Below are positions 1 to 9,052 of a stretch of DNA of 64,000 bases, one piece after another. Each line of letters begins with the position of its first letter. Position 1 is the stretch's first letter. The DNA is from Pedobacter sp. (lineage in GTDB: Bacteria > Bacteroidota > Bacteroidia > Sphingobacteriales > Sphingobacteriaceae): positions 1-64,000 of the forward strand of contig JANXVH010000141.1 in NCBI GenBank assembly GCA_025351765.1, read 5' to 3'. The notes beneath the pieces were generated by a model that was given only the letters and a program-made list of their open reading frames with translations, was not told the DNA's origin and did not search any database. Made by a program: the position numbers and the translations under genes.

Positions 1-1945
1 CGGGCAACGATTGATCATGGGTATAAACAGTCGCCCCATTTAAAGGAGAAGGGTCAAATCCGTTCAACTGCCCACCACTTCCTGTTATAAATATTTCATT
101 TTTCAGGGCCTGTAGGTCAAATTGTTTATTGCCACCTGACATAGCGGTATACACAGGCGAACTTAATAATCGCCATCCCCTAGCAGATGCGGGAGCGATG
201 TAGTTTCCTGAAATAAACTGTTGGACAATCACCTCTCCGCTGATACTTGAAATATTTGGATTATTTATTGGCATTACTGCCGCAGTATTTGTGGCAGATG
301 TAGCAAGCAGTATCAAATTGCCATTAGAAATTAGCATTCCTTTTTTCGCTTCTACGAAACCGGTAACCTGAACCGGCGAATTAAGCACTAGCTTAAATAT
401 TGTTTCCGCCTGTTCATTTTTAAGTCGCTGTACTTTTAACACACCTGTCCCGCTATAATCTTGGACTTGCTGTCCCCCAGCAAATCTGATGGTTCCGCCA
501 GAGGCATCAGAAGATATGGAGCCATTGTTTAGAACGTTCGATGAAAATGTGAGTGTTGCCCCGCTGCTAAGAGTCAATGCACCTCCTAATGCAACCTGCG
601 ATATGCAGCTGGCCTGCATATCTGCAGCCAACGTTAAACTGCCACCCTGTTCTATGATGAGCTTATTCAATATATTAGGACTCCCGCCTAAGTACTTTAC
701 GGTTTTCCCTGAAGGGATCACCACATTCGCATTCGAGCCCGGTACGGTGGCTGTGCTCCAATTTGATGCAATATTCCATTGATTACTTGAACCTATAAAT
801 CTATAAAAGCCTGAGGGGCTATATTCTTCTGCAGATACCGTGTAAAAACTGGCAGGATCATTCTGGTTGTTATATTCCGTTTTCATCCATTCTGTGCCGA
901 TGGCGATTTTCTGGATCCTCAGCTCGTCCATGGCGCCATAAAATTTGTTATTTCCAAGGCGATTGCGTCCTATTCTTAGCGTACCGCCCGGCCCTAGACG
1001 CAGTGACGGTATGGAGGCTGAGCCTACGGCGTTTCCATTCAAGTAAATGGTGCCTACTGTTCCGGAAAAGACCACGCATACATGGTATAGGGTTCCCGCA
1101 TTTAGAGCAGTTAGGCCTCCGGTAATACTTGCCGTAGCAGAAAGGCCCTTGAAAACATCTAGCACCAGTTTATTGTCCACGTTCATCCTCAACTGATAGC
1201 CACCCCTTGCTAAACTATCATTTGTCAATATGACTTGGTCTCTGCCAATTCCACTCGACTTTATCCAACCGGAAATGGTAATGGTTGTACTCTCTTCTGT
1301 GCCAGCGTTGAAAATCGCCGAAGTAGTGTTAAGCTCAATGCCAAGGCCTATTTTAGCGCTTTTAAATACATCGCTGTTCGGAACATCACTATTAAAATTC
1401 TGTAAACCCTGGCCTTGATAAAAAGCATTCATATGCAAAACTTTTGAGTAATCTGCATTCCAGGTATTAAGGGCTGTTGTTGAGTATGGATTGTGCAAAT
1501 TGGCGGGGGATGAACTGCCGTAATACAGATAAATTGCAGTGGCCGTAGTGGCGGTTTTGTTTGCTGCTAACGCACTGATTTTAACCCAGCAGGTCAATCT
1601 GCCAGAGATTGGGTCATAGCGTTCAAGCTGAAAATTCAGAGGAACACCCGGCGCAGTGCTTAAAGCAAATGAAATGTCTTTGCCGCCAGCATCTTGTATT
1701 TTATTTCCACATGCACCCGGGTAGTAGATAAGGTCGTTGTCTGTCAGGTCTATCAATACTGGAAAATCAACTAAATCATAATCTACAGTATTTGTGGAGC
1801 TATAAACTATAGTTTTGGCATTAACCTTACTTTTATCTATTGTTATTTTTTTACGGTAACTGAAGCCGTTCATCCACGATTGTGCCAACAAGCACTGGCC
1901 AGATATCATCAGGATTACTAAAAATCCGGCATATTTGAGGGTCAT
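1..1945 (-). CDS. DUF2341/LamG-domain secreted surface protein (N-terminal part, cut by window edge)
   Basis: The reading frame is open from an ATG at 1945 to the window edge (648 codons), so this is the N-terminal part of a large protein. A signal peptide is visible (MTLKYAGFLVILMISGQ, ending near LLAQ). Residues about 25-160 look like DUF2341 (FSYRKKITI at the start; LERYDPISGRLTCWVKI and AIYLYYGS later). About 190-330 resembles a LamG/concanavalin A-like fold (ITISGWIKS, LYHVCVVFSGTVGTIYLNG, DELRI). The remainder has beta-rich repeats ending in a segment like the pre-C-terminal part of Bacteroidota surface proteins (RGWRLLSSP). The function is probably carbohydrate or surface binding; no catalytic residues are seen. 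The C-terminus, where a type IX secretion signal would sit, lies outside the window. It is divergent from the small gene at 2061. Confidence 0.8.
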   Translation of the reverse strand, partial: MTLKYAGFLVILMISGQCLLAQSWMNGFSYRKKITIDKSKVNAKTIVYSSTNTVDYDLVDFPVLIDLTDNDLIYYPGACGNKIQDAGGKDISFALSTAPGVPLNFQLERYDPISGRLTCWVKISALAANKTATTATAIYLYYGSSSPANLHNPYSTTALNTWNADYSKVLHMNAFYQGQGLQNFNSDVPNSDVFKSAKIGLGIELNTTSAIFNAGTEESTTITISGWIKSSGIGRDQVILTNDSLARGGYQLRMNVDNKLVLDVFKGLSATASITGGLTALNAGTLYHVCVVFSGTVGTIYLNGNAVGSASIPSLRLGPGGTLRIGRNRLGNNKFYGAMDELRIQKIAIGTEWMKTEYNNQNDPASFYTVSAEEYSPSGFYRFIGSSNQWNIASNWSTATVPGSNANVVIPSGKTVKYLGGSPNILNKLIIEQGGSLTLAADMQASCISQVALGGALTLSSGATLTFSSNVLNNGSISSDASGGTIRFAGGQQVQDYSGTGVLKVQRLKNEQAETIFKLVLNSPVQVTGFVEAKKGMLISNGNLILLATSATNTAAVMPINNPNISSISGEVIVQQFISGNYIAPASARGWRLLSSPVYTAMSGGNKQFDLQALKNEIFITGSGGQLNGFDPSPLNGATVYTHDQSLP

Positions 1946-2060
1946 ACTAAATAATTTCTGAGCCTAAACTGGATGAATTTTAATTAAGAATACAACCTGA
2001 CGTGCAAAATATTGTTCAGAATAGTTGTATTCCTAAAAATAAATCAATCAGGTTTGAGCC

Positions 2061-2240
2061 ATGAAATACCATCTGTTAAACTTCTTGCTTTGTATCATTG
2101 TTGGATCGGCTACTGCGCAATATGGTGATCCCGGTCTTCCCGGAGGAGATCCTGATGTTCCATTAGATGGAGGTGTAACTTTATTGCTTATTGCCGGAGC
2201 TTGTTATGGTATAAAAAAAATAAGAGAAACTAAACAATGA
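2061..2240 (+). CDS. 59-aa mini-protein with PID-CTERM-like sorting signal
   Basis: The ATG at 2061 follows a weak AGG and opens a 59-codon frame. It encodes a signal peptide (MKYHLLNFLLCIIVGSATAQ), a short Gly/Pro/Asp linker (DPGLPGGDPDVP), the motif PLDGG, one hydrophobic helix (VTLLLIAGACYG), and a basic tail (IKKIRETKQ). This tripartite end (short motif, transmembrane helix, basic residues) resembles the PID-CTERM family of tiny Bacteroidota proteins, which are thought to be processed by an exosortase-like enzyme. I assign that family from memory of the pattern. The gene is divergent from the LamG surface protein. Its last 11 bp overlap the end of the convergent kinase gene (stop at 2230). 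No sorting enzyme is visible in this window. Confidence 0.7.
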   Translation: MKYHLLNFLLCIIVGSATAQYGDPGLPGGDPDVPLDGGVTLLLIAGACYGIKKIRETKQ

Positions 2241-3084
2241 GGCCTTCTTTTTTTAGGATGTAATTATAAATGCCTTCAATCGGCTTTTGGAAAATTTTGC
2301 CAACATTTACCTGGTTTTTTGTGCAAATCTCGAGAAGAACATCCTGGTAATAATAGGCAATCGATCCAACGAAATGACAATTGAGATCTTTATAGTTTGC
2401 ATAATCTTTCACGTTAGTATCAACGAATTCTTGAAAACCTTCACGCAGGATATTTAGGATAAAAGGATGATCGGTGCGGTTGATCATAAAACGGCTTATA
2501 GAGGCTAAAAATATGTTTGGCGCCGGTTTTTGATAAATATTAGTGATCACCATTTCTTTATCAAGGTCAAACGCGGCTTTAAATTCTATACTAAGGTCTG
2601 ATGGCATTTGATTGTATAAAAAGCTCTTGATCAGTTTTCTGCCGAAATGGGTGCCGGAGCCTTCATCCCCTAGTATATAACCCAAGCCATGTGCCCCACT
2701 GTGTACTTCTTTGCCGTCGTAATAAGAAATGTTGGAGCCCGTCCCTAAAATACAAGTTAGTCCTTCTTCGTCGCCGCAGGTAGCATAAGCAGAGCCGATA
2801 AGATCATGCTCTACAGACACGTAGGAATTCGTAAAATAAGAGGAGATCCCGTTTGAAATCACCTCTATTTTATCAGGGGAAGAACAACCTGCTCCAAAAA
2901 AATAGATTTCCTTGACACGATCTGCAAAACCAAGCAACTCCTTTTTCTTAGTAAAGATCTTGAAAATATCGTTTGCATTCAAAAAATAAGGATTTATCCC
3001 TTGTGTGCTAAAACTAACTTTTTCATCGGGACTATAACCCATCCAATCCGTTTTAGAAGAACCACTGTCTGCTACCAAAATCAT
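2230..3084 (-). CDS. BadF/BadG/BcrA/BcrD-type ATPase, N-acetylglucosamine kinase-like
   Basis: This 284-aa protein has the ASKHA sugar-kinase layout. The phosphate-1 loop is near the N-terminus (ILVADSGSSKTDW, residues 2-14) and a second loop lies at about 110-117 (CILGTGSNIS). A glycine-rich patch follows (HGLGYILGDEGSGTHFGRK, about 132-150). That last segment is typical of the GlcNAc-kinase branch of the BadF family, which phosphorylates amino sugars in the cytoplasm. The length matches the family (about 280-300 aa). There is no operon partner: the gene is convergent with and overlaps the mini-protein gene by 11 bp. The exact substrate is inferred. Confidence 0.8.
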   Translation of the reverse strand: MILVADSGSSKTDWMGYSPDEKVSFSTQGINPYFLNANDIFKIFTKKKELLGFADRVKEIYFFGAGCSSPDKIEVISNGISSYFTNSYVSVEHDLIGSAYATCGDEEGLTCILGTGSNISYYDGKEVHSGAHGLGYILGDEGSGTHFGRKLIKSFLYNQMPSDLSIEFKAAFDLDKEMVITNIYQKPAPNIFLASISRFMINRTDHPFILNILREGFQEFVDTNVKDYANYKDLNCHFVGSIAYYYQDVLLEICTKNQVNVGKIFQKPIEGIYNYILKKEGLIV

Positions 3085-3290
3085 TTGCTAAAATTAGTAA
3101 TCTTATTGGATATTTAAAGTTCGGCTTGTACCTTTTAAACTGATCTCCGGAAGCTAGACCGGTAAGGTGCTTCTAGTTATCTTATAACGGCATCTATAGA
3201 ATTTCGCTGCGCCTCAACAATCAGGAAAAGCATACATGCACATTGTGTTAAGTACGTTACAGCGTAGTGTTTTCATTGGTGCACTTTTGA

Positions 3291-3321
3291 TTGCATTAAA
3301 GCGCTATTTTTTTTAGTTTTG
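3291..3321 (+). promoter_or_regulatory. Bacteroidota-type promoter for the M61 peptidase gene
   Basis: A TTG at 3291-3293 is followed after 20 bp by TAGTTTTG (3314-3321), matching the phylum's -33 TTG / -7 TAnnTTTG consensus. It ends 22 bp before the ATG at 3344. Confidence 0.55.
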
Positions 3322-3343
3322 GTGGTGGTTAAATAGGCTAATT

Positions 3344-5134
3344 ATGAGCAGGAGAGTGTTAGGGTTAATATTAGTAATATTGTCGATAGGTATGGCAGGT
3401 AAATCGCAAGTTAAAGTTGGGTTTGAGGTAAGTTTTATTGAGCCTCAAGCACACTATGCAGAAATTGAGATGAACATTTCTGGATTGGTCAAAGACTATG
3501 TCGATGTAAAAATGCCCGTCTGGGCGCCGGGTTCGTATCTTATTAGGGAATTTGCCAAAAGTGTAGAGGGATTCAGTGCCAACGCTAATGGGAAAGCGCT
3601 GAAGTTTGAAAAGGTACGCAAAAACGCCTGGAGGATACATTCCGCAAAAGCCAGCGCCATAAAAATTAAATATAGGGTATATGCCTTCGAGATGTCGGTA
3701 AGGACTTCGTTTATAGACGATACCCATGCGTTTTTATCTAGCACATCTATTTTTATGTATCCAGATGGTCAGCTAAAATTACCAAGTACAGTAAAGATTA
3801 ATCCTTTTAAGGGTTGGAGTAAAGTATCAACCGGACTAGAACCAGTAGCAGGCACTAAGTTTACTTACAAGGCATCGAATTTCGATGTCTTGTTCGATAG
3901 CCCGATCGAGGTAGGCAACCAGGAGGTATTTGAATTTACTGCCTCCGAGGTCAAGCATGAAGTGGCGATGTATGGCATGGCCAATTATAATCAGGAACGT
4001 TTGAAGGTTGATATGCCAAAAGTTGTAGAACAGATTACTTCCATTTACGGGGAGAACCCCAATAAGCATTATACGTTTATTGTACATAATTTAAGTGTGG
4101 GAAGCGGCGGACTAGAGCATCTAAACTCAACAGTTCTAGGTGTGGCCAGAGATTCGTATGTGACAGAAAAAGGTTACAAAGGATTTTTAGGACTTGTGGC
4201 ACATGAGTACCATCACCTATGGAATGTAAAACGATTAAGGCCAATAGCACTTGGCCCATTCGACTATGATAATGAAAATTACACAACCAACTTGTGGGTA
4301 GCTGAAGGATTTACTTCCTACTTTGAGAATAAGATCTTGCTGCGAGCCGGTTACAAGACTGAAGTTGAAACTGCTCAGGCTTTTGTAACAGATATTGCAG
4401 CGGTTTACAATAAACCCGGAGCGAAGGTACAGTCGGCAGCCGAAGGGAGTTACGATGCCTGGATTAAAAGCTACCGCCCAAATGAAAACTCTGGGAACAC
4501 CACCATTTCCTATTACACGAAAGGTTCTGTTATTGCTACTTTAATGGACCTGGAGATTGCACACGCTACCAAGGGAACTAAATCTTTGGACAATGTAATG
4601 CACGATATGTACCAGCAATATTATAAGAAATTAGGCAGAGGATATACCGATTCAGAATTTAAGACTATGGTTGAAAAGATCAGCGGGATTAGCTTTACTG
4701 ATTTCTGGGCTAAGTATGTGAATGGCACAGCGGACGTTGATTACGATAAACACCTAGGATTTGCGGGTATTTTAGTCGCAAACGAAAATTTAGGAAACCA
4801 GGAGCCTTACCTTGGTGTGGCGTCAAAGAAAATTGAAGGTTTGGTTATGGTATCTTCTATATTGCGTAACTCGGCAGCGTGGGCTGGTGGTTTAAATGTG
4901 AATGATGCGGTGATCAGCGCTGATGGTATTCTATTAGATACCCTTCTCGAAAAGATGCCTTTAATCGCTACGAAAAAGGTAGGCGATACCATTACCCTAA
5001 TGGTAAGAAGAGATGGAATAGTAAAAGAAATAAAACTTACCTTAACTGCTAATCCAAACATTAAGCTGGTTGCCAAATTTGATGATGTTGCGACAGAAGA
5101 ACAACTCAAAGTTAGGAAAGCAGTGTTTTATTAA
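3344..5134 (+). CDS. M61-family metallopeptidase with PDZ domain
   Basis: This 596-aa secreted peptidase has an N-terminal signal peptide (RRVLGLILVILSIGMAG). A beta-rich N-terminal region (about 25-195) is followed by the gluzincin catalytic core. The zinc motif HEYHH is at 287-291, with the third-ligand segment WVAEGFTSYFE about 25 residues later. A PDZ domain occupies about 485-575 (YLGVASKK, VMVSSILRNSAAWAGGLNVND). This domain order and length fit the M61 glycyl aminopeptidase family, which acts in the periplasm or at the surface. It stands alone between a strong promoter and a weak hairpin. Confidence 0.92.
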   Translation: MSRRVLGLILVILSIGMAGKSQVKVGFEVSFIEPQAHYAEIEMNISGLVKDYVDVKMPVWAPGSYLIREFAKSVEGFSANANGKALKFEKVRKNAWRIHSAKASAIKIKYRVYAFEMSVRTSFIDDTHAFLSSTSIFMYPDGQLKLPSTVKINPFKGWSKVSTGLEPVAGTKFTYKASNFDVLFDSPIEVGNQEVFEFTASEVKHEVAMYGMANYNQERLKVDMPKVVEQITSIYGENPNKHYTFIVHNLSVGSGGLEHLNSTVLGVARDSYVTEKGYKGFLGLVAHEYHHLWNVKRLRPIALGPFDYDNENYTTNLWVAEGFTSYFENKILLRAGYKTEVETAQAFVTDIAAVYNKPGAKVQSAAEGSYDAWIKSYRPNENSGNTTISYYTKGSVIATLMDLEIAHATKGTKSLDNVMHDMYQQYYKKLGRGYTDSEFKTMVEKISGISFTDFWAKYVNGTADVDYDKHLGFAGILVANENLGNQEPYLGVASKKIEGLVMVSSILRNSAAWAGGLNVNDAVISADGILLDTLLEKMPLIATKKVGDTITLMVRRDGIVKEIKLTLTANPNIKLVAKFDDVATEEQLKVRKAVFY

Positions 5135-7661: not shown

Positions 7662-7714
7662 GATTTGTCTATAAAAGATTTATATTTATTGTCACCCAAG
7701 TATATAACAAAATA

Positions 7715-9052
7715 ATGAAACAACTAATAATTTGCTGCGCATTGCTATTCTGTTTAATGAGCTGCAAAAAAGAAATACATCCCGAGCTGAGAAACAAAGA
7801 TATCGCCAAGGTTTTGGAGGAGATGACACAGTTAATGATCCATGATGTAACCAATCCACCTCTGGCTGCCAGGTTTTATTCCTATACCTGTCTTTCGGGA
7901 TATACCGTTATGGCTTTGAACGATTCAAGTATGATATCATTTAAAGGGGTACTAAACCAGTTTCCAGAAATCACAAAACCCTTAGATTCAGGGCAATATT
8001 CAGCTCCTTTGAGTGCGATACTTGCCATGACTGGCACCGCAAAAAAAATGCAGCCTTCTGGTAAATTGTTCGTTGCTTTTGAGCAGCAATTTCTGGACTC
8101 CTGTAGAAAAATCGGTTTCTCAGATGAAATCATTGGCCATTCACAGTCGTACGCCAATCAGATTATTAAACAAATATTGCCTTACGCAAAAAAGGACAAG
8201 TACAATAGGATTAGTAATTACCCTCGTTACACGCCAAGTAATACTGAGGGCAGCTGGTATCCCACTCCACCGGCATTTTTTGCGCCTGTAGAACCGTACT
8301 TTAATACCGTAAGGCCATTTTTTATTGACTCAGCTTCACAATTCGTATCAATCCCTCCTGTTCCTTATTCTAAGGATAAGAATTCAAAATTTTATAAAGG
8401 GTTAAAGGAAATCTATATAGATGCAGGGAGCGGTTTAACTAAAGAAAACAAAGAAATAGCGTCATTTTGGGACTGTAATCCTTTCGCTTTGAAGAATCAA
8501 GGACATTTATTGGTAGGGATGAAAAAAATATCACCGGGCGCACATTGGATTGGTATCACGGGTATCGCTTGCCAAAAAGCAAAAGCTAATTTTTCCAAAA
8601 CACTTGAAATTTATACGGTGATAGCTATGGGGCTCACTGATAGCTTCATTTCCTGTTGGGACGAAAAATATAGAACCAACAGGATACGTCCGGAAACAGC
8701 TGTTAGAAATCTTATCGATCCTACGTGGAAGCCCATGCTGCAAACACCGCCCTTCCCTGAATATATGAGCGGCCACTCACATATATCATCAACAAGTGCA
8801 ACTATTCTTACCTATTATTTTGGAGATAATTTCAAGTATACAGATAATGTAGAGGAAAAATACGGACTTAAATCTAGAAAGTTTGCCTCGTTCCTCCAAG
8901 CAGCCCAAGAGGCCGCTAATAGCAGATATTGGGGAGGAATCCATTTTAGGGACGGTATAGTAAATGGAGTTTCCGTTGGTATTGAGATTGGTAAACATAT
9001 CGTTAATGAGCTAAAAAGCAATCATATCAAGCCCCTGGCTGAAATAAAATAG
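7715..9052 (+). CDS. Vanadium haloperoxidase / PAP2-type lipoprotein
   Basis: From the ATG at 7715 the 445-aa product starts MKQLIICCALLFCLMSCKK, a lipoprotein signal with the lipobox LMSC. The frame extends upstream, but those residues would precede the signal peptide, so the ATG is preferred. The C-terminal half holds the PAP2/vanadium haloperoxidase phosphate- or vanadate-binding set: a Lys/Arg segment (KYRTNRIRPET), SGHSH (in PPFPEYMSGHSHISS), and RYWGGIHFRDG. It probably acts at the outer membrane or periplasm as a phosphatase or haloperoxidase; the two cannot be told apart from sequence. Its start region overlaps the upstream part of the divergent DoxX-like gene. Confidence 0.88.
   Translation: MKQLIICCALLFCLMSCKKEIHPELRNKDIAKVLEEMTQLMIHDVTNPPLAARFYSYTCLSGYTVMALNDSSMISFKGVLNQFPEITKPLDSGQYSAPLSAILAMTGTAKKMQPSGKLFVAFEQQFLDSCRKIGFSDEIIGHSQSYANQIIKQILPYAKKDKYNRISNYPRYTPSNTEGSWYPTPPAFFAPVEPYFNTVRPFFIDSASQFVSIPPVPYSKDKNSKFYKGLKEIYIDAGSGLTKENKEIASFWDCNPFALKNQGHLLVGMKKISPGAHWIGITGIACQKAKANFSKTLEIYTVIAMGLTDSFISCWDEKYRTNRIRPETAVRNLIDPTWKPMLQTPPFPEYMSGHSHISSTSATILTYYFGDNFKYTDNVEEKYGLKSRKFASFLQAAQEAANSRYWGGIHFRDGIVNGVSVGIEIGKHIVNELKSNHIKPLAEIK

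Follow-up and report, generated by a model that had tools for sequence, protein, structure and literature searches.

A PID-CTERM mini-protein of Pedobacter and its exosortase and type IX secretion context

What purpose can a secreted protein serve that is almost nothing besides its own targeting signals, and which enzyme cuts it? The question is raised by an open reading frame (ORF) of 59 aa, divergent from the gene of a large LamG surface protein, near the start of a 64,000-nucleotide stretch of Pedobacter sp. DNA (contig JANXVH010000141.1 of GCA_025351765.1; the window). The answer proposed here, with a probability of about 0.6, is that an exosortase excises a conserved peptide of some 17 residues and couples it to a glycan or lipid, and that the peptide serves a partner protein of the type IX secretion system (T9SS) and the biofilm matrix. 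The sorting motif, the co-occurrence with exosortases, the pairing with T9SS cargo genes and the conservation of the peptide are observed in the genomes compared. Genomes, contigs, loci and families carry G, C, L and f numbers (the window's genome is G000).

The mini-protein and its mature peptide

The mini-protein gene (2061..2240, forward strand, 59 codons plus stop) encodes a signal peptide, a stretch rich in Gly, Pro and Asp, the motif PLDGG, a single hydrophobic helix and a basic tail. The NCBIfam model NF046080 (PID_CTERM), which spans only 25 positions, matches residues 33-56 with 41.3 bits (E 9.3e-11), against a cut-off of 26, and the motif is therefore not a chance occurrence. The signal peptide, as read from the sequence, takes up residues 1-19 (2061..2117), with a predicted cut between ATA and Q. 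The predicted mature peptide has 17 residues, QYG..PLD (residues 20-36, 2118..2168). The sorting motif P-L-D-G-G (2160..2174), presumably the region of exosortase recognition or cleavage, lies inside the NF046080 match and is followed by the transmembrane helix (residues 39-51, 2175..2213) and the basic C-terminal tail (residues 52-59, 2214..2237), both placed by sequence and the same match; all these features are on the forward strand.

The first-pass annotation, made from the window alone, had called the product PID-CTERM-like and almost only signal peptide and tag with hardly any mature part, and the profile score and the ORF layout bear out both statements. Of the two things that it had asked to be looked for in the genome, further proteins with this tail and an exosortase-like gene, the second is present; for the first, the 59-aa protein is the sole PID_CTERM protein over the cut-off found in G000, an assembly 94.95% complete. 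Another match there (C99, a frame of 1414 aa) reaches 16.1 bits, under the cut-off, and was dropped.

Small size is general among PID_CTERM genes. Their median length is 67 aa, with 111 of 126 at 100 aa or less and 125 of 126 at 200 aa or less (126 readable frames from 128 sites), and the one outlier reads 965 aa. A heuristic, applied to 99 homologs in which a signal-peptidase site can be recognised (it cannot in 4), gives a predicted mature part with a median of 16 residues and quartiles of 14 to 19, which begins with Gln in 74 of the 99 and consists of Pro to 28%. Conservation across nine Pedobacter sequences, among them that of the window, is highest in the peptide core (84% identity, pN/pS 0.17), followed by the sorting-signal helix (65%, 0.29) and the signal peptide (18%, 0.80); the contrast between core and signal peptide is inflated, because synonymous sites are almost saturated with differences and 7 of the 13 core residues had been fixed by the search pattern. 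The PG-x-PG of the core, which the pattern did not impose, is kept in all nine.

Some PID mini-proteins elsewhere (L005, L006, L096, L100, L134, L143, L146, L158) carry an N-terminal extension with two CxxC motifs, zinc-ribbon-like in appearance, before the signal segment; the three scanned have no Pfam match. Three minis of G231 (L069:4031-4279, L164, L165) have in common a longer Pro-rich mature part that ends in GPGPPPPPPPPPNVPLDGG.

Exosortases and type IX secretion cargo

The enzyme that cuts such proteins had been regarded as not established, a view now amended in that the window's genome carries one XrtY-like exosortase. PF09721 detects none in this genome; TIGR04178 detects one (G000:C146:7961-8224, 37.4 bits, cut-off 23), in a gene of 178 aa (L053:7706-8242). 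Its Cys92 and Arg133 are shared by 30 of 30 aligned exosortases and its His152 by 29 of 30; Cys, Arg and His form the conserved exosortase residue set, presumed to be catalytic. No solved structure similar to it in sequence was found at E up to 1. The gene lies in an exopolysaccharide operon that includes matches over cut-off to XrtY_assoc_Wzy (542.7 bits, cut-off 420) and XYAG1 (479.1 bits, cut-off 400), and further genes for a Wzc-like kinase, an ABC polysaccharide exporter, a GT2-like glycosyltransferase (the matches being under cut-off) and a WcaF-type acetyltransferase.

In a tree, this exosortase clusters with those of G579, G648 and G698 (support 0.986), the three genomes in which the same mini gene lies beside a full-length LamG ortholog. 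All three are Pedobacter genomes and encode the exosortase as a fusion with a GT2-like glycosyltransferase domain (L294:1861-3318, reverse strand; L295:6185-7666, forward; L297:7156-8295, reverse; the G698 protein was not itself scanned). The corresponding glycosyltransferase (L053:6852-7709) and exosortase (7706-8242) of G000 are adjacent, overlapping genes. The exosortase of the PID-negative genome G099 (L186) also looks fused.

Among 296 genomes of the phylum Bacteroidota, PID_CTERM is over its cut-off in 48 and TIGR04178 in 112. All 48 PID genomes have the exosortase match, versus 64 of the 248 others (Fisher 2e-24, a value that overstates independence because the genomes share ancestry). 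Exosortase X is over its cut-off in 36 phylum genomes, 35 of them PID-positive. Within the window's own family (201 genomes), an exosortase is found in 30 of 31 PID genomes versus 64 of 170 others (p 1e-10). XrtY-like enzymes under the cut-off occur in G000, G033 and G091, and PID_CTERM is present in all three. The mini gene directly adjoins the exosortase gene in G045, G072, G115, G273 and G033, and a genome may have up to nine PID_CTERM matches, several of them near-identical.

Two genomes of the window's own family, G577 and G685 (L284, L285), have a mini gene next to an exosortase inside polysaccharide clusters, in a layout unlike that of the window. Pedobacter genomes G080, G138 and G643 (L054, L055, L308) have an XrtY-type exosortase and no PID_CTERM match; a crude filter detected no small targets near the XrtY gene in the first two.

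Clustering of the genes around PID_CTERM genes gives one dominant family, from 33 genomes, of large proteins with a T9SS-like tail, encoded on the same strand as the PID gene and mostly less than 100 nt upstream. Scored by a profile built from 32 partner tails rather than by TIGR04183, a T9SS cargo-like gene lies upstream within 400 nt at 98 of 128 PID sites (from profile coordinates); the count omits the window's own site, six unfetched sites over the cut-off and two that lie where G108 contigs begin. The background is 31 of 550 other genes of the fetched loci, which leaves out same-strand downstream neighbours (tails in 11 of 52). TIGR04183 itself is over its cut-off in 10 of 10 scanned partners, which had been chosen for their tails. 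An earlier count by a motif filter that missed some sites had given 80 of 102; of its 79 positive upstream neighbours 32 were profile seeds, and their removal leaves 47 of 55, if all seeds are taken as counted hits.

Of the eleven families sampled, nine (f1, f2, f4, f9, f21, f23, f42, f43, f50) contain one tandem pair or more, and f7 and f8, with one site each, have none. Family f23 supplies 69 of the 98 tandem sites; pairing elsewhere stands at 1/1 in f1, 4/6 in f2, 7/9 in f9, 7/15 in f21, 4/6 in f42, 1/3 in f43 and 4/4 in f50. In the window's own family, where tails were read by eye and six were confirmed, 18 of 26 parsed loci (29 loci, three without a parsed mini) have a T9SS tail upstream on the same strand, and two have a divergent LamG gene.

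The partner gene of the window (2..1945, reverse strand) encodes the N-terminal 648 aa of a secreted LamG/DUF2341/G8 protein, with Laminin_G_3 (76.7 bits), DUF2341 and G8 over their Pfam cut-offs; it is an N-terminal part only, since the window starts where the contig starts (G000:C116:1). Full-length orthologs occur in G698 (1062 aa, 41% identical), G648 (1070 aa, 42%) and G579 (1080 aa, 38%), over about 650 aligned aa, and all three adjoin a mini gene and match TIGR04183, the T9SS type A sorting domain (25.6, 32.9 and 28.0 bits, cut-off 23). Presumably the LamG protein of the window is T9SS cargo as well. The two genes are divergent in G698 and G648, as in the window, and tandem with a 12-nt gap in G579, so the pair has been kept despite a change of layout. 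The T9SS pore SprA is encoded in G000 (TIGR04189, 1956.7 and 569.1 bits on two contigs), as are only two TIGR04183 matches over the cut-off. The early suggestion that placement next to a large surface protein may be meaningful gains from the 98 sites beside cargo-like genes and from this orthologous LamG/T9SS partner in Pedobacter.

The Flavobacterium johnsoniae counterpart and the proposed mechanism

PID-like minis reach E 0.01 or better in 214 of 249 Flavobacterium genomes (search with a seven-row alignment, matches not inspected individually). G427, a single contig of 6,096,872 bases, is taken here to be F. johnsoniae strain UW101. Its porZ-like ORF (2283 bp) and XrtF-associated ORF (447 bp) have the insert sizes given for Fjoh_0707 and Fjoh_1449 (PMC10936215). 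The sole significant mini of this genome (E 8.8e-7, against 0.36 for the next best) has 80 aa and is encoded by a gene at 710501-710743. From the neighbour of this gene to porZ, a coding score counts 57-58 protein genes (57 without a 47-aa ORF) and one tRNA; the caller dropped the mini gene itself, so the count begins at its neighbour. A cruder ORF count gives 65 steps from the mini gene to porZ. The published numbering requires 56 by locus tag (0651 to 0707) or 59 by RefSeq tag (RS03415 to RS03710, numbered by fives) for the distance from Fjoh_0651, which is annotated only as hypothetical and was complemented with a 434-bp fragment that included a promoter (PMC10936215).

The 243-bp mini gene is compatible with that fragment, and its flanking genes, read here as riboflavin synthase and DNA methyltransferase-like, are at odds with the entry 'hypothetical, no COG'. 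A 434-bp insert might likewise have come from any of five further small genes without annotation at 702.8-704.5 kb, but these lie at least seven genes further from porZ. Gene order around the mini is that around the PID genes of G029, G103, G107 and G226, the G029 protein scoring 41.1 bits. The F. johnsoniae mini has no match to NF046080, which would explain the label hypothetical. By chromosomal position, the F. johnsoniae mini-protein is probably Fjoh_0651.

Deletions of Fjoh_0651, xrtF and Fjoh_1449 are identical in every entry of Table 2 of PMC10936215: the strains are under-represented in the screen, colonize sand less, form much less biofilm and no zorbs, and colonize sand less in the community, and Bacillus cereus colony expansion and the planktonic community are as in the wild type. 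Complementation restored colonization, and mutants of the cell wall/membrane and T9SS classes (strains not individually named), but not others, also failed on sand in root exudate (PMC10936215). If the identification is right, these entries suggest that a strain without the mini-protein is impaired in surface colonization, biofilm and zorbs in the way that one without the exosortase is, and that mini-protein, exosortase, T9SS and a polysaccharide gene share one phenotype class. The XrtF substrate is left as future work in PMC10936215, and PMC12188702 (2025) still describes the targets as not yet known. The purpose of such proteins, which the first-pass annotation had held not to be established, has with Fjoh_0651 a candidate phenotype; the function as such is a proposal.

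In the mechanism favoured here, signal peptidase would remove the N-terminus of the precursor, and the XrtY-like exosortase would cut near PLD-GG and transfer the peptide to a glycan or lipid that the operon produces, as co-occurrence, tree and gene context suggest; both steps follow the proposed exosortase model (PMC7468200). At the surface, the tagged peptide would then act jointly with the product of its partner gene, in the window the divergent LamG protein. Its role would most likely be that of an anchor, acceptor or matrix component that holds cargo and polysaccharide together in a biofilm. Contact between peptide and cargo is assumed, and the partner and matrix step draws on genome context and phenotype.

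Several results weigh against this reading. The best NCBIfam model for the exosortase of G000, exosortase Y (NF046083), has a cut-off of 160 bits; the enzyme falls short of it with 130.3, and its close relatives in G579 and G648 reach 160.7 and 170.7. Exosortases without PID_CTERM are common (the 64 of 248 phylum and 64 of 170 family genomes above), XrtY is over its cut-off in six genomes of the phylum draw with PID_CTERM over cut-off in just one, and G565 (93% complete) is a PID genome without an exosortase match. Of the 128 PID sites, 8 have the T9SS neighbour downstream and 22 have none within 400 nt (two of these at an edge), and in the first neighbour analysis none of 36 adjacent genes on the opposite strand had a T9SS tail, which makes the divergent layout of the window unusual. 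The G427 mini, which is outside the 128-site count, has as neighbours the genes read above as riboflavin synthase and methyltransferase-like. Among the 74 of 80 named loci, nearly all from Pedobacter, that have the kinase gene found next to the window's mini gene, a motif filter detects no mini in 61, three of which have a LamG homolog, and a mini beside the kinase in 13, six with a LamG homolog; the filter missed a copy in P. metabolipauper seen in direct comparison. The match of the Fjoh_0651 and xrtF phenotypes is, moreover, not specific to the exosortase path, because Table 2 lists identical results for the deletions of porU, porZ and Fjoh_0334, and those of porV and sprA depart from this pattern in B. 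cereus expansion alone (PMC10936215).

The concentration of tandem sites in f23, where minis and cargo tails look recently duplicated, would suit a pairing by hitch-hiking, in which surface-gene cassettes duplicate together and the mini is unrelated to the cargo, and four of the five f4 sites have no cargo neighbour. Such an account is unlikely, as the pairing recurs in f1, f2, f9, f21, f42, f43 and f50 and in Pedobacter outlasts an inversion. Release of the peptide as a secreted signal or matrix peptide, with the T9SS neighbour merely co-regulated, fits the tiny mature part rich in Pro, Gly, Asp and Gln and almost devoid of Lys and Cys, the strong conservation of its core and the colonization lost on deletion of the F. 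johnsoniae gene (PMC10936215). It is judged quite unlikely, since signalling peptides are not usually encoded in several near-identical copies in one genome, most of them next to separate cargo genes, and exosortases are proposed to attach, not release (PMC7468200).

The precursor being almost entirely membrane segments, it might also never be processed and instead act as a two-helix hairpin with a regulatory or chaperone function for the exosortase or the T9SS; the CxxC..CxxC extension of some relatives would then lie in the cytoplasm. This is improbable, given that conservation in the Pedobacter set peaks in the periplasmic peptide core, that mini genes mostly adjoin varied cargo genes and not machinery genes, and that co-occurrence with a C-terminal processing enzyme is 48 of 48. 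Beyond exosortase transfer as favoured above, a relay of two sortases is conceivable, with slender odds: at the inner membrane the exosortase would load the peptide on a glycan or lipid, the conjugate would reach the surface, and PorU would join the C-terminus of the neighbouring cargo to the free N-terminus of the peptide. The peptide would then be a covalent link between a T9SS protein and a polysaccharide, which would explain the bodyless substrate, its adjacency to T9SS cargo and the similar xrtF, mini, T9SS and polysaccharide mutants of F. johnsoniae.

Locus surroundings and known systems

On the other side of the mini gene, and convergent with it, lies a gene for a NagK-like kinase (2230..3084, reverse strand; profile match under cut-off), conserved in Pedobacter by comparison of loci and probably not part of the mini system. 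The M61 protease nearby is up to 74% identical to that of P. panaciterrae; relatives have an RND-like efflux operon (TolC/AcrB/AcrA-like) between kinase and protease, which G000 lacks there (window 2230-5134). The interval that separates the divergent mini and LamG genes in the window yielded no sigma-70-type site, and an inverted repeat at 1988-1996 / 2024-2032 is equalled by 14 of 200 shuffles, so that no promoter is claimed. A palindrome, ATTAACCGGATATATCCGGTTAAT, lies between the divergent genes in L312 and L315 (0 of 200 shuffles), is degenerate in L311 and was not seen in the window.

The known task of exosortases is the sorting of full-size surface proteins. Here the payload is only about 16 residues, and most minis are tied by genome context to another secretion system. 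A named substrate can be proposed for F. johnsoniae XrtF, in a genetically tractable organism for which deletion strains exist, and direct tests become possible of two matters, the attachments made by exosortases and the retention of T9SS cargo on the surface of bacteria outside the oral pathogens. The PID signal and the X and Y exosortases are already known to NCBIfam curators, the models for PID_CTERM, exosortase X and exosortase Y having accession numbers close to one another. A literature search met no paper naming PID-CTERM, and searches for XrtX, XrtY, exosortase X/Y and XYAG1 returned only unrelated subjects, judged by title; the parts of the literature examined describe neither the mini pattern nor the T9SS pairing, nor do they identify Fjoh_0651 as a mini.

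Compared with PID-CTERM as modelled by NF046080, the window protein has the same P-x-D-G-G, helix and basic tail and does not differ in kind; the present comparison adds the recurrence of mini-proteins, their pairing with T9SS cargo and the outliers in Flavobacterium. Among exosortases X, Y and F (NF046081, NF046083, TIGR04128), the enzyme of G000 is nearest to XrtY and lies in an XrtY-type operon, yet is under the XrtY cut-off, and five of the six phylum-draw genomes over that cut-off lack PID_CTERM over its own. PEP-CTERM and its exosortases (EpsH, XrtA) likewise combine a C-terminal motif, helix and basic tail with an exosortase and polysaccharide genes. PEP-CTERM substrates are usually full-size proteins, whereas those described here are tiny, have PLDGG (PxDGG) in place of PEP and usually have T9SS cargo as partner.

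GlyGly-CTERM, the rhombosortase substrate signal, also has Gly-Gly before the helix, and it anchors cargo of another secretion system, the type II system (T2SS), at the surface (PMC7468200); the companion enzyme found here is an exosortase, no rhombosortase search having been made. Type A cargo of the T9SS, handled by the sortase PorU, is represented at the locus by the LamG partner, whose orthologs end in a T9SS domain, while the mini-protein has no such domain and carries a C-terminal signal of its own.

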